Assembly: GCA_024226335.1 (NCBI GenBank)
Contig: JAAELY010000386.1
Coordinates: 1 to 43,798, forward strand
Direction: 5' to 3'
From: a bacterium
GTDB lineage: Bacteria; Myxococcota_A; UBA9160; SZUA-336
DNA length: 43,798 nucleotides
Shown: piece by piece, positions 28,389-34,148 of the stretch
How positions within the stretch are numbered: the stretch's first letter is position 1
How the letters are laid out: each line of letters begins with the position of its first letter
Position numbers and translations under genes: made by a program
Notes under the pieces: generated by a model
The model's database searches: none
The model's input: only the letters and a program-made list of their open reading frames with translations
Told to the model about the DNA's origin: nothing

Positions 28389-29123
28389 GTGTCCGAGTAC
28401 GCCCGAGTCCGACTGATCGACCGCCTGGTCGAAACCGCCGTTCGCGGTCGTACATGCGTCGTACTGGGCGGGCCGGGTATGGGCAAGACGACGGTGGCCC
28501 GGGCCGCAGTGGAAGAACTGGCCCTACGCGGTCGCCGGGTCGGAATTCTGGAATTGCCCGAAGACGAAGGCGACTGCAATCGCCTGCTGGACGAAGCGCC
28601 GGAAGGTCCTCGCATTCTGACGGGAGGATTGGGGCTTCATCGCGTCCTGGCGAAACGCGTGGCACCCGAGGGGGCCGTTCTCCAGCGCTTTCCCCTGTCT
28701 CCGCTCCCACGGCTGGATCTCGAATCCTGGGCGCGACGCTCCGGGGCTCGGATCGGACGCGAAGAATTGCTGCTCGCGTTCGAGGCAAGCGGTGGACATC
28801 CTCTGCTCTTCGCTGCATGGCTGCATACTCGGCGCAGTCTTCCAGCCCCCGAAGCGATCGAGAAAGAACTGATGACGGCGCAATCCGATTTGTTCCGGCG
28901 AATCGATCGCGAACTCCTGGCCGCCGAGCTCGCCGCTCCATTCGCATGGCTCGAAGAGCACGGTCTCAGCAGTGTCGACGAACTTCGCCGAGCAACGCGT
29001 GCGGACAAGCAGACGGTCGATCGACTGGTCATGGCCGGGCCGGTCTCGCGCACACAGGGCGAACGCTCCGAGATCCAGATCAGCTGCGGTCTCTACCGAC
29101 GCTGGCGCGCGGAGGCCCGCTGA
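28389..29123 (+). CDS. Small P-loop (AAA/STAND-like) ATPase
   Basis: A 244-residue protein with a GTG start. The Walker A motif is VVLGGPGMGKTTVARAA (about residues 24-40), and a hydrophobic strand RRVGILELPEDE follows, where the Walker B-like acidic residues could be. The remainder is helical: LLLAFEASGGHPLLFAAWL is the sensor-2/GHPL signature seen in archaeal-type and STAND ATPases (GxP region). The C-terminal 70 residues resemble a winged-helix (LEEHGLSSVDELRRATRADKQTVDRLV). No effector domain is attached. The last 31 bases overlap the 3' end of the convergent fusion gene. Function is unknown; it could be a regulatory switch. Confidence 0.8.
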   Translation: MSEYARVRLIDRLVETAVRGRTCVVLGGPGMGKTTVARAAVEELALRGRRVGILELPEDEGDCNRLLDEAPEGPRILTGGLGLHRVLAKRVAPEGAVLQRFPLSPLPRLDLESWARRSGARIGREELLLAFEASGGHPLLFAAWLHTRRSLPAPEAIEKELMTAQSDLFRRIDRELLAAELAAPFAWLEEHGLSSVDELRRATRADKQTVDRLVMAGPVSRTQGERSEIQISCGLYRRWRAEAR

Positions 29124-31060
29124 GCGGTTGCGAATTCGACGCGGGATTGCAGCCCACTGTCCGGGTCGCGGATTTCCAGGACAGAGGGGACGTCGACTCG
29201 GAATTCGAAACGACCCGGCGCGCGAGCCACGCCGACCCGTCTGGCCCGCTCGACCAGCCCAAGCGCAACCGTGCCCAGCGTGAAGCGCGCATTAAACTCG
29301 ACGAGGGGACGCAAGATGGACTCGCCATCAAAGGAATAGACGAAAGCGTCCACTCCGCAGGCTCCGAAATAGCCGCGTTCGCGTGCTGCTTCCGCCGCCA
29401 CGAGACCCGCCGCCTGCAGCCGTTCGTCAAACAGCGTGCCCGCGCGAATCGAACCATTCGCTTCCAGACAGCCGCGATGTCCCCGAGGAACACCCGAAGG
29501 GCTCACGATCGACTCGAGCGTTCCGAGCGCATGAATCTCGCCGCTCATTTCGATCCAGTAGTGCGCCGACAGGTCGACCGTGCGCTTCAACCAGGGTTCG
29601 AGCAGAAAACCGCCGCAGCGGGCAAGCCGAGCCATCGCGCCTTCGATCTCGGAGGGAGCGAATGAGCCAATTCGCCCAGCGACGCGGCCTCTCCCGCTCG
29701 AACTCAGCCGGGGCTTGAGCGCGAACTCACTCCCCAACTCAGGGGCCCAGCGAGCCGTTGCGCTTTCCACGGATTCGACGACACGATGGACGTCCGCGAG
29801 TTCTTCCGGGTCGAAGACCCGAATCGCCTCCCGCAGGCACGGGTGCAGGCTTCCCTCTTCGAGCGCCAGGCGGTGGGCAAACGCCTTGTCATGCACGCTG
29901 CGCACGACCGCGGGTGGAGGTGAGGCGAGTTCCCGGCCCGCGCGAGTCGCGATGCGCAGCGCCTCATCGGTACCGAGCCAGGCCACCACCTTCTTGCCGC
30001 GCGGCAGGAAACTCCAGGCCGGAAGCTGCGCATCGTCGCTCCAGGCTTCGGGCAGGACCGCGGCATCGAGGCCATCCACCCCACAGAAGCGCGCGTCACG
30101 GGCGAACAGGCCGCCGAACAGACGCGCACTCGCGGCAACCGCCGCGTGCGAGAGCGCACGTCGCCAGTTGTCCCCCTCTTCCGCACCGAGGTTGGGGAAG
30201 ATTCGCGGCTCCTCGACGGCGGGCTCAGGGCCGTTGCCTTTCCGCTTCGGACCTGCGTTTCGCACGTACTCGATCCAGGAATCGTCCAGCCCCGCCGCGC
30301 GCCGCGCATCCGCACTGAACGCGCGCCCCTTCGCCCGCGACGCGGACAGGGGAAACGGCACGCTGGCTTCATAGGCTTCGAGATCGCTTTGCTCGGGCGA
30401 CTTGAGCCTTCGCAACCAGGTGAGCGCGAGACGCACGTGCCCCTGCTCCTCGTCGTGAATCTGCTGACAGACTCGCGCACTCGCTTCATCGCCCACCGTG
30501 GCAAATGCATCGCGATACATCAGGGTGAAATCCAGATTCGCCTGCTCCAGGGTCAGACCCATGGCACTCAGAAAGGCGAGCGGACCGTGGGGGCTGGCCC
30601 AAAGCGCGGGAACGTGCAGCCAGAAATAGTCGGATCGCGGCGCATCGCCCAGGCTCGAGCCGAGCCTGTCCAGACGCTCGAGGTATAGGCCGAGGTGTCG
30701 TTGCTCATCGGCCAGAGCCGCGAGCCAGCCGCGGCGCAACGACTCGGGCGCCTCGGGCCAGGCGAGCAATGCCCAGGCGAATAGTTCGACCGCCATCAAC
30801 TCGTGATGGGCAAAGCGGTGAATGCAGGTCGCTCGCTTGGCGGGATCTTCGAGTTGTGGGGGCGGCGGAAGGCGCTCGGCTCCCGAACTCAGCGTCAGAT
30901 CGGCGGAACGCGCCGGTCGGTCGATGTAGATGGCCGCAAGCGGATCCGAGCCGAAGAATCCCGGCTCGTCTGAAACGGGCGGCGGACGCGTCTTCGCTTC
31001 GAGATCCCCCGATTCCAGGATCGACAGGCAGTAATCGCGCACGCTTTCGCCGTCCGACAT
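29093..31060 (-). CDS. DUF455 ferritin-like / ATP-grasp fusion protein
   Basis: A 655-residue two-part protein. Residues about 70-290 match the ferritin-like DUF455 family: HHELMAVE (Glu87, Glu92), DEQRH (Glu119, His122) and HDEEQGH (Glu204/205, His208) are the paired E...EXXH-type metal ligands of a four-helix bundle. Residues about 340-655 look like an ATP-grasp domain: EFALKPRLSSSGRGR (ATP-binding Lys and loop), GGFLLEPWLKRTVD, then FGACGVDAFVY and PLVEFNARF, with the Glu-x-Asn metal-binding pair. A combined metal-oxidase/ligase could make a small peptide or modified amino acid. No domain of known substrate is attached and the product is unknown. Confidence 0.88.
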   Translation of the reverse strand: MSDGESVRDYCLSILESGDLEAKTRPPPVSDEPGFFGSDPLAAIYIDRPARSADLTLSSGAERLPPPPQLEDPAKRATCIHRFAHHELMAVELFAWALLAWPEAPESLRRGWLAALADEQRHLGLYLERLDRLGSSLGDAPRSDYFWLHVPALWASPHGPLAFLSAMGLTLEQANLDFTLMYRDAFATVGDEASARVCQQIHDEEQGHVRLALTWLRRLKSPEQSDLEAYEASVPFPLSASRAKGRAFSADARRAAGLDDSWIEYVRNAGPKRKGNGPEPAVEEPRIFPNLGAEEGDNWRRALSHAAVAASARLFGGLFARDARFCGVDGLDAAVLPEAWSDDAQLPAWSFLPRGKKVVAWLGTDEALRIATRAGRELASPPPAVVRSVHDKAFAHRLALEEGSLHPCLREAIRVFDPEELADVHRVVESVESATARWAPELGSEFALKPRLSSSGRGRVAGRIGSFAPSEIEGAMARLARCGGFLLEPWLKRTVDLSAHYWIEMSGEIHALGTLESIVSPSGVPRGHRGCLEANGSIRAGTLFDERLQAAGLVAAEAARERGYFGACGVDAFVYSFDGESILRPLVEFNARFTLGTVALGLVERARRVGVARAPGRFEFRVDVPSVLEIRDPDSGLQSRVEFATAQRASARQRR

Positions 31061-31231: not shown

Positions 31232-32110
31232 ATGCTCGAAGCACTTTCGAAGTTTGGTGCGGCGGACGCGATCGACATCGCCCTGGTCAGTATTCTGTTT
31301 TACGCGGGCGCCTCGGTCCTGCGGCGAACTCGCGCAGCCCTGGTCGCTCTGGGCATCGGCCTGCTGGGAATCGTGTACCTGACTGCGAACTGGTTCGCGC
31401 TGGGCACGACCAGCCTGGTCTTGCAGGGCCTGTTCGCAGCCACCGGCCTCGCATTCGTGGTCATCTTCCAGGACGAGTTGCGCCAGGCCTGCGAAGAACT
31501 GGCGGCCTGGGCCATCGGCCGACATGACGACCACCGTCCCAAGCTCGACTCGAGCGAAGTGCTGGTCGGGGCATTGGCCAGGCTGGCGCGCGAGAAGGTC
31601 GGTGCGCTCGTCGTGCTGACCGGCTTGCAGAAGCTCGATCGACATTTCCAGGGAGGAGAAGTCCTCGGTGGCGAGATCAGCGCGCCCCTGCTCGACAGCC
31701 TGTTCGACCCGTCCTCCGATGGACACGATGGCGCGGTGATCCTCGAAGACCGGCTCGTAAGCCGTTTTGGCGTTCAGTTGCCGCTGTCCAAGAACCTGGA
31801 GCGTCTGCCGGGCACGGGCACGCGCCACAGCGCAGCACTCGGACTCGCTGAGCGAACTGATGCGCTTTGCCTCGTCGTCTCTGAGGAACGGGGTACCATC
31901 TCGGCAGCGGCAAATGGTCAACTGCACGAGATCCAGAGCGAGGACGAATTGACATCGATCGTGAACTACTTTTTCCGTCAGCAACGCCGGCTGGCGGCGC
32001 CTCGTCCTCTGGCTCAGCGGATCTTCCGGGATCGCCTGATCGAAAAGGCTGCGGCGCTGGGCCTGGCCTGTGCGCTCTGGCTTCTGCTCGCGGTGACGCG
32101 CGGCGCATGA
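31232..32110 (+). CDS. cdaA: Membrane diadenylate cyclase (c-di-AMP synthase, CdaA type)
   Basis: The protein is 292 residues: three N-terminal membrane helices (about 14-30, 35-55, 60-80), then the DAC domain. The catalytic motif DGA lies at 166-168 in DGHDGAVI, and GTRHSAALGLAERTDALCLVVSEERGTIS (197 on) corresponds to the second motif. In described cyclases this reads RHR; here it is RHS (198-200). An extra hydrophobic C-terminal segment (ALGLACALWLLLAV) is unusual. It makes cyclic di-AMP from two ATP, a signal for cell-wall and osmotic control. The TGA overlaps the ATG of yhbY (ATGA). Neither the CdaR regulator nor GlmM is adjacent. Confidence 0.9.
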   Translation: MLEALSKFGAADAIDIALVSILFYAGASVLRRTRAALVALGIGLLGIVYLTANWFALGTTSLVLQGLFAATGLAFVVIFQDELRQACEELAAWAIGRHDDHRPKLDSSEVLVGALARLAREKVGALVVLTGLQKLDRHFQGGEVLGGEISAPLLDSLFDPSSDGHDGAVILEDRLVSRFGVQLPLSKNLERLPGTGTRHSAALGLAERTDALCLVVSEERGTISAAANGQLHEIQSEDELTSIVNYFFRQQRRLAAPRPLAQRIFRDRLIEKAAALGLACALWLLLAVTRGA

Positions 32111-32424
32111 AGGGTTTTCAGAAACGCTACCTGCGCAGTCTGGGTCACAATCTGAAGCCCGTCGTGGTGATCGGACGCAACGGCCTGAGCTCGGCCGTGA
32201 TGGCCAAGGTCGACCAGGAACTGAACGCACACGAGTTGATCAAGATCCGCTTCTCGGACTTCAAGGAGGAGCGCAAACAGCTCGTCGAACAGATCGCCGA
32301 GGCCACACAGAGCGCGACGGCGGGAGTACTGGGCAATACGGCCATCCTGTACCGCGAACACGCAGATCCCGACAAGCGCAGCGTCGTCGTGCCGCAACGA
32401 GAAAGTGGCGGCGAGAAAGCCTGA
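32107..32424 (+). CDS. yhbY: YhbY-family RNA-binding protein (CRM domain)
   Basis: A 105-residue single CRM domain. It has the family start LRSLGHNLKPVVVIGRNGLS with the GxxG loop (GRNG, about residues 23-26), followed by LIKIRFSDFKEER and the end TAILYREHADPDK. E. coli YhbY binds the pre-50S ribosome and takes part in large-subunit assembly. It is translationally coupled to the diadenylate cyclase gene, and is convergent, 4 bases apart, with the GST-like gene. Confidence 0.93.
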   Translation: MKGFQKRYLRSLGHNLKPVVVIGRNGLSSAVMAKVDQELNAHELIKIRFSDFKEERKQLVEQIAEATQSATAGVLGNTAILYREHADPDKRSVVVPQRESGGEKA

Positions 32425-32428
32425 CCCG

Positions 32429-33211
32429 CTAGAAATCCAGGGGAAGCGTCAGGTAGTCGCGATAGATCCGGTCGCGGTGCTCCAACAGGACGGGGTCGGC
32501 CGCGGCGCGCGCCTCTGGATCGAGCAAGACGTAGCCGACACGGATCGGCTCCGGCATGGGGCAGACCTCGGCGGGCAGTGGCTCGAGCATCGCACTCGCG
32601 GTCGCCCAGTAGATGTCGGCTGCGCTCAGGTCATCGCCCACGAAGTACGCTGAACCGCGCCGCTTCTGGGCGAGCAATCGCCCTGAAAGAAATTCCAGGA
32701 TCTGCGTCACCCGGCCCGACGCCGAACGAGCCGTCGCCTCGGTGTAACCGTACTTGTCAGCCAGATTCTGGACGATTCCTCGCATGAATTCGGGCAACGC
32801 CGCTGCGGCGTCTCCTTTCATTCCAGCCAACATCATGAGTCGGCGGCACCAGAGGAAGCCCTGCTCCCCGCTGATTTCGTGCAGGAGGCCGAACATCTCG
32901 ATGCGCGCTTCTGGATCGCTCGGGATCAGTGCGGGCTCGGGTTCCAGGCGTTCCGCCAGGTGCACGATATCGGACCAGTGAGAGCGCGGACGCTCGTTTT
33001 CGTAGATCGCGATCGGCGCGTTGTCCTGGCCGGTCCAATCCCGAAGGGCCGAGTTGTCCATCCCGCCGATCTGCCGCACCGGTGCGTACGGAATTCCTTT
33101 GACCTGAAAAACGCCCTTGGCCGCTTCGCCCCAGGGCCCGGGCACACCCGCGCTCAGAACCAGGCGAAGGCCCGACCGATGCCTGGCTTCTTCCACATCC
33201 AGATAGTCCAT
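32429..33211 (-). CDS. Glutathione S-transferase-like protein
   Basis: A 260-residue protein from an ATG with GGAG five bases upstream. The N-terminal segment (LVLSAGVPGPWGEAAKGVFQVKGIPYAPV) resembles the thioredoxin-fold GST domain, and ENERPRSHWSDIVHLAERL ends it with a Glu/Asp-Ser-like helix start. The C-terminal helices contain YFVGDDLSAADIYWATA, the GST capping-box pattern. The classic catalytic Ser/Cys/Tyr is not clear (SAGVPGPWG takes its place), so it may be a non-catalytic or unusual member. It starts 11 bases after the end of the selenoprotein gene and is probably in one operon with it, which suggests a redox role. Confidence 0.78.
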   Translation of the reverse strand: MDYLDVEEARHRSGLRLVLSAGVPGPWGEAAKGVFQVKGIPYAPVRQIGGMDNSALRDWTGQDNAPIAIYENERPRSHWSDIVHLAERLEPEPALIPSDPEARIEMFGLLHEISGEQGFLWCRRLMMLAGMKGDAAAALPEFMRGIVQNLADKYGYTEATARSASGRVTQILEFLSGRLLAQKRRGSAYFVGDDLSAADIYWATASAMLEPLPAEVCPMPEPIRVGYVLLDPEARAAADPVLLEHRDRIYRDYLTLPLDF

Positions 33212-33221
33212 ATCCGCTCCG

Positions 33222-33968
33222 CTAGTCCGAAGGTTCAAAGTCTAGTAACACGGGAGCCCCGGTCTCTGAACTCTCGAGCATGCCGAGCGCGGCTTCGAGC
33301 ACGGCGTGCTGGCGTTCGGGCTCTCCCGGACGGTCGAGTGGAAACCCGTGGGCGAAAGGCACGAAGAGCGCCCGCGGTGGGCGCACCGCGAGCGCCACCT
33401 CGCGCAGGAGCTGGATCGCCACGGTAGCGATGCCTTGACGCTCGAGTTCCGCCGCCACCAGGCCGACCGCCTGGTTGCACATGGGTCAGACCGGAACGAG
33501 CAGCGCTACGTCGACCTGGTCGTCGACCAGTGCGCGGACGGCTTCGGGGGCGGTGTTCTTCACCAGCCGACCCGGTGCAGTAATACTGCCCATGAAACTG
33601 AGGTGGCGCATGGCGACAGAGCCTACGACACCGGACTCCACGAGTTCGCGCACACGCTGCAGTGGAAAGGCCAGTTCAGTATCCCGGCGCATCGCGGTGT
33701 GATCGAACGACTCGCTGCGATGGGTATCGATCAGGATCGAGCCGTCGGTATCGCTGGGAATGAAGCGGAAGCTCGGATCCCCTCCTCGAAGCGATTCGTC
33801 AAAGCGCTCCTGATCGGGCAGGACGAATCCCGCACTTGAAACGAGCGCCAGGCGCGCTTGCGAAAGAGGCTTGCTCGGACGCGTAAAGGGCACCGGATCG
33901 ATTCGCCGCCAGCGGTAGGCCTTCAGGAAGAGGCGAACCGAAACGGAGAACTCACTCATCTGGCCCAT
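33222..33968 (-). CDS. Selenoprotein, glycine/betaine/sarcosine/D-proline reductase selenoprotein B-like (UGA = Sec161)
   Basis: One 248-residue product is read from ATG at 33968 (GGAGG seven bases upstream) to a stop at 33222, through an in-frame TGA at 33488-33486. Before it, the frame ends [16 protein letters not shown] and [12 protein letters not shown]; after it, it continues [18 protein letters not shown], giving V-U-P-M-C. The RH-SFMGSI and LLVPx-UxxC patterns fit the GrdB-like family. Sec161 and Cys164 form the redox motif. A hairpin with a GGUCG loop lies at the correct distance downstream (separate entry). Seen as two open frames, the gene would look broken. Known GrdB reductases reduce C-N or C-S substrates; the substrate here is unknown. 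SelA-D must be encoded elsewhere. Confidence 0.85.
33457..33475 (-). promoter_or_regulatory. Bacterial SECIS-like hairpin for UGA decoding
   Basis: On the minus strand, ACCAGGC (33475-33469), loop GGTCG (33468-33464), GCCTGGT (33463-33457) form a perfect 7-bp stem. Three further pairs extend it past an A-G mismatch. The loop begins 17 bases after the UGA, inside the spacing described for bacterial SECIS. Its GGUC core matches the SelB-contact loop of E. coli fdhF. The hairpin lies within the coding frame, as bacterial SECIS do. Confidence 0.8.
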
Positions 33969-34148
33969 TTGATCGCCTCCAATTCGGGTCCTGGCCGTCG
34001 GCAGGATAACGACGCTGACTCGGACTCGCCGTCTTTTTCCCAACTGCCGTCGAACTGCCGTCGAACTGCCGACCGGGTCGGAACGCGCGATACAGATATG
34101 GTCACCTGGGGCCGATTCAGACCGGAAGTCCAAGCCGCGGGAGCCTCG

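Follow-up and report, generated by a model that had tools for sequence, protein, structure and literature searches.

A PrdB/GrdB-like gene with an in-frame UGA in a Myxococcota_A genome: comparative evidence for a selenoprotein

On the minus strand of the 43,798-nucleotide stretch of DNA analysed here (the window), two reading frames in the same phase are parted by a TGA at 33488-33486 and by nothing else. Does this TGA end one gene, or does it encode selenocysteine (Sec) within a longer one? The first-pass annotation took the second view, proposing a functional 248-residue selenoprotein with Sec in a UPMC motif, and direct reading of the sequence confirms the arrangement it described: between an ATG at 33968 and a TAG at 33224-33222 the TGA is the sole interruption, and it falls at codon 161 (Table 1). 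Naive gene calling would split the gene at this codon, as the annotation had said, and the locus is a clean example of truncation by standard annotation for which sequence alone gives unusually strong proof. Judged on the comparisons described below, the gene very probably encodes a genuine selenoprotein, a member of the PrdB/GrdB-like UxxC family.

Table 1. Features at and beside the predicted selenoprotein gene (positions in the window)
Feature	Position	Strand	Remarks
PrdB/GrdB-like selenoprotein gene	33222..33968	-	248 codons plus TAG, Sec codon 161; orthologues share start, TGA and end
In-frame UGA, predicted Sec161	33486..33488	-	TGA in 20 of 21 aligned orthologues, TGC in 1
UPMC redox motif (UxxC), codons 161-164	33477..33488	-	read from frame
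Candidate bacterial SECIS hairpin, 7-bp stem, loop GGUCG	33457..33475	-	pairing upheld by compensatory changes where Sec is encoded; lost in Cys forms
Putative ribosome-binding site GGAGG, 7 nt 5' of ATG	33976..33980	-	read directly from sequence
GST_C-like gene	32429..33211	-	PF00043, 21.7 bits (cut-off 20.7); starts 10 nt past the selenoprotein stop

Conservation across the UGA

The TGA could have arisen by nonsense mutation, or by an error of sequencing, in a gene that once had Cys at this codon, as the assembly is a draft of 556 contigs and TGA is one base away from TGC and TGT. The homologues argue strongly against this. A phylum-wide survey of 379 genomes gave 148 homologous places, and in counts made by eye from the list exactly one in-frame TGA occurs at 144 of them and TAA or TAG at none; two of the remaining places cover the site with no stop codon, and the other two are partial matches that end before it. 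Homologues were present in 45 of 60 genomes, the gene's own included. Orthologues at 57-73% identity were recovered from the GTDB collection in records titled Myxococcales/Deltaproteobacteria, Acidobacteriota, Planctomycetota (with Brocadia), Verrucomicrobia and Neomarinimicrobiota, and when 21 orthologues were aligned by codon, 20 of them, from several phyla, carried TGA at this very position. The other, L061, has TGC and so supplies the Cys homologue at residue 161 that the first-pass annotation had suggested looking for; looking for more Cys forms throughout the class to which the L061 genome belongs turned up one extra orthologue, which carries TGA.

Constraint also continues past the codon. 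Relative to the window copy, and among orthologues with unsaturated synonymous sites, dN/dS ranges from 0.06 to 0.28 downstream of the UGA and from 0.09 to 0.30 upstream. With the TGA shared and purifying selection persisting downstream, together with a covarying hairpin (see below), the reading as a pseudogene or assembly error is refuted, and we assign it a vanishingly small probability. The proposal that Sec lies in a UPMC motif gains support from the homologues as well: U/C161, P162 and C164 are invariant across nine orthologues. The assembly of one Planctomycetota orthologue (L062) lacks residues 39-116 or has them out of frame; its UPMC half is intact.

Alternatively, the locus might encode two proteins, one of 160 aa stopping at the UGA and another of 86 aa initiated by translational coupling at the ATG at 33482-33480. 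This ATG lies 3 nt past the UGA, and an 86-aa ORF beginning there appears in the open reading frame list. However, the Met following the UGA is not conserved (homologues have L, V, N, T, F, D or Y there), and a restart is disfavoured because this residue varies so freely. A stop that is never TAA or TAG at any of the 148 places also speaks against two proteins, as does the Cys orthologue L061, in which the two halves form one continuous frame. We therefore consider two separate products scarcely credible. What the comparison of homologues shows is a UGA that is read through, with the downstream part translated in frame and under selection.

The downstream hairpin and the selenocysteine machinery

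A perfect 7-bp hairpin with a GGUCG loop had been reported to start at the eleventh base after the UGA, and it does so exactly. ACCAGGC (33475-33469) and GCCUGGU (33463-33457) form seven Watson-Crick pairs around the loop at 33468-33464, with 10 nt between the UGA and the first stem base and a UGA-to-loop spacing of 17 nt. Published limits for bacterial SECIS elements are a loop of 3-9 nt, a stem of 4-16 bp, a spacing of 16-37 nt, a G within the first two loop positions and an MFE of at most -7.5 (PMC13188914), and the hairpin at 33475-33457 lies within all of them; its folding energy in isolation is -12.6 kcal/mol. By itself the hairpin is only suggestive, because an equally good one accompanies 10 of the window's 1085 TGAs, both strands counted (0.9%, a chance rate of about 1%), and the stability of the whole 61-nt stretch is unremarkable (z = -0.39). 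A search of Rfam around the gene at a permissive threshold returned chance matches only, below the gathering score. The case for a SECIS element is made by the conservation and covariation of the hairpin in homologues.

In a gap-free alignment of 41 TGA homologues, all of which preserve the hairpin through compensatory changes, 94.9% of cells in the named hairpin are paired, against 75.7 +/- 1.4% in shuffles, and 46 cells are altered on both sides, against 11.8. Covariation is 0.540 compared with 0.173 in shuffled alignments and at most 0.130 in slid controls; sliding the partner by one base lowers pairing to about 29-36%. Kinship among the sequences inflates the shuffle statistics, yet the slid controls share the same kinship and fail. 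RNAalifold recovered six of the seven pairs unprompted, and 12 of 14 additional loci read later, those with TGA, retain 5-7 pairs. The coding sequence shadows the RNA: a change from Gln (CAG) to Arg (CGC) on one side pairs with a change from Leu (CTG) to Ala (GCG) on the other, such that covariation in the RNA even forces paired changes in the protein (Q..L versus R..A). Where the UGA has become TGC the hairpin is gone. Only 3 of 7 pairs are left in the Cys orthologue L061. The same holds for L086 and L087, two distant relatives with Cys encoded by TGC (motif CGTC), whose position in the tree is independent. Shown in this way by comparison among homologous sequences, the hairpin is evidently a selected RNA element. 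The covariation of the hairpin and its loss together with the Sec codon were worked out in the present analysis.

The genome to which the window belongs (5.75 Mb, 97% complete) encodes the required machinery. It has a tRNA-Sec (72.7 bits, anticodon TCA), SelB over the cut-off, SelA (514 bits) and SelD (336 bits), so that selA, selB, selC and selD, whose presence the first-pass annotation had left to be checked, are all there. The selD gene (L070, G000:C545) has an in-frame TGA of its own and would by frame encode a selenoprotein with the active site VPAGGUARKLG. SelB scored over the cut-off in 10 of 10 genomes checked from the same phylum, and in 37 of 45 genomes with a homologue versus 8 of 15 without one (Fisher p = 0.039), a co-occurrence that is weakly informative as these are draft genomes. 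The eight genomes with a homologue and no SelB over the cut-off (8/45) are all draft MAGs. Two of them, G005 and G043, have SelB fragments at contig ends; the lack of one in G032 (97% complete), G050 (94%) and G054 (93%) weighs against the reading as a selenoprotein. On established biology, the hairpin would be recognised by SelB carrying Sec-tRNA(Sec), and Sec would be inserted at codon 161. The comparative evidence makes Sec insertion at the UGA (33488-33486) nearly certain.

Family placement and possible function

In profile searches with U read as Cys, the best NCBIfam match was TIGR04483 (PrdB), at 104.8 bits (E = 4.7e-30) over residues 27-235. Adding the downstream part raises this score from 76.7 to 104.8 bits, which indicates that the downstream part is homologous too. 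The joined protein also scores above the gathering cut-off of the GRDB family PF07355 (30.3 bits against 22; residues 16-158, profile positions 204-345 of 347), a search the first-pass annotation had proposed. This match, the Sec machinery and the Cys homologue at the site support the functional 248-residue selenoprotein that it had predicted. Its description of the product as half of a clostridial GrdB does not hold, since the protein is PrdB-sized and scores best with TIGR04483. GrdB, GrdF and GrdH (glycine/sarcosine/betaine reductase; PF07355, TIGR01918) align with the window protein through their C-terminal half; it is without their N-terminal half (248 aa compared with about 430) and is below all NCBIfam GrdB cut-offs (TIGR01917/TIGR01918: 40.8 bits against 65.45 and 37.9 against 602.2).

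The novelty implied by the earlier description was likewise too high. UxxC selenoproteins of the PrdB type have been published since 2005, when they were the third commonest known selenoprotein family in the Sargasso Sea, with 42 Sec forms and 1 Cys form (PMC1088965); the 2008 GOS survey counted 235 Sec and 110 Cys forms (PMC2398784). These marine proteins belong to the same family, in which Sec is commoner than Cys and which is abundant in uncultured bacteria (PMC1088965, PMC2398784), although the likening to the window gene, itself from a draft genome, is by family description. The family is already known, and what is new here is one more member of it.

Is the protein, then, a true D-proline reductase, acting with PrdA in Stickland-type amino-acid reduction? 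Its likeness to Clostridium PrdB (TIGR04483) is considerable, with lengths of 238 and 248 residues, a near end-to-end alignment that is the best NCBIfam match, and Sec in a UxxC motif. The score of 104.8 bits is nevertheless far below the TIGR04483 equivalog cut-off of 300 bits, and PrdA (TIGR04480) was found in none of the 60 related genomes, own included, in a search without a positive-control match, so that its absence is probable. We regard this reading as highly unlikely. As PrdA was not found in these 60 genomes the name "proline reductase" is unsupported, which suggests that the label does not fit this group; PrdA is also unmentioned in the main text of the GOS paper (PMC2398784).

A confident AlphaFold2 model built from nine orthologues (pLDDT 87.6, pTM 0.89) places the predicted Sec161 after a beta strand (154-158) and directly before a helix (162-177). 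Solved structures, searched by sequence and by fold, contained no relative at E <= 0.001, and the PDB copy searched held no family member. No mechanism is therefore borrowed from structure, and the catalytic step is drawn by analogy with the UxxC chemistry of PrdB, GrdB and thioredoxin-like selenoproteins. On that analogy the Sec161 selenolate would be the nucleophile that attacks a polar bond or disulfide of the substrate, Cys164 would resolve the intermediate to a selenenylsulfide, and a cellular thiol system would reduce the selenenylsulfide again. The protein would thus most likely be a stand-alone selenol-dependent reductase that works without the pyruvoyl partner PrdA. We hold this mechanism as a whole with moderate confidence, as somewhat the better bet. 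The second Cys of UxxC is not universal: the distant TGA homologues L045 and L047 read UPLD, with Asp in its place and the hairpin retained, so a resolving Cys at that place is not available to every member.

Action on other bonds has been proposed for a related protein. For the GrdB-like selenoprotein FarB the suggested reaction is cleavage of a C-F bond, that of monofluoroacetate (PMC10838667), rather than of the C-N bond of glycine, which suggests that GrdB-family chemistry may be portable. FarB, however, works with a GrdE-like partner in its operon, whereas a conserved partner gene was not seen for orthologues of the window gene. It is an evenly balanced proposition that the UPMC-NQ orthologues make up a separate subfamily of selenol reductases that act alone, independently of PrdA, are shared by several phyla of uncultured bacteria and use a substrate other than D-proline or glycine. 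If so, "proline reductase PrdB" would be largely a misnomer for the numerous genes counted under that name in ocean metagenomes. The family, published as proline reductase, occurs widely and in multiple copies in genomes that gave no PrdA match, which makes its real function a testable question.

Neighbouring genes and further copies

The selenoprotein gene and the GST_C-like gene behind it (Table 1) are probably co-transcribed in the window, and the first-pass annotation had regarded the two as coupled. They could conceivably form a functional pair, for example in selenol/glutathione detoxification, given a shared strand, a gap of 10 nt and the existence of GST-type selenoproteins (PMC1088965). 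Against this, no GST-like gene lies beside any other orthologous locus examined, within flanks of up to 1.5-4 kb, including L025, from a relative in the same family. Functional coupling is unsupported on this account, and we judge it unlikely. Among the orthologues generally, the only conserved neighbours were those shared within near-identical pairs or within small groups like L030/L056/L058.

The same genome holds at least 4 more TGA-containing relatives of the PrdB type, on C387 (L068), C435 (L069) and C29 (L065, L066), all with a SECIS-like hairpin. The motifs in this set are UPNC, UPLC, UPVC and UTDC, and the last-listed is truncated at a contig start. A further relative, L003 (G000:C266:53169-53480), matches only the part before Sec, and its frame does not run on into the UxxC half; it is either a truncated paralogue or a member of a different subfamily.

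Elsewhere in the window, the minus-strand gene at 29093-31060 encodes a 655-aa protein with a weak ferritin-like match (encapsulin cargo type) in its first third, the only part to receive an assignment. On the plus strand, 31232-32424 holds a gene for a CdaA-like diadenylate cyclase (153.6 bits; the cut-off is 188.8) and, after it, one for a YhbY RNA-binding protein; these run convergently with the selenoprotein gene pair.
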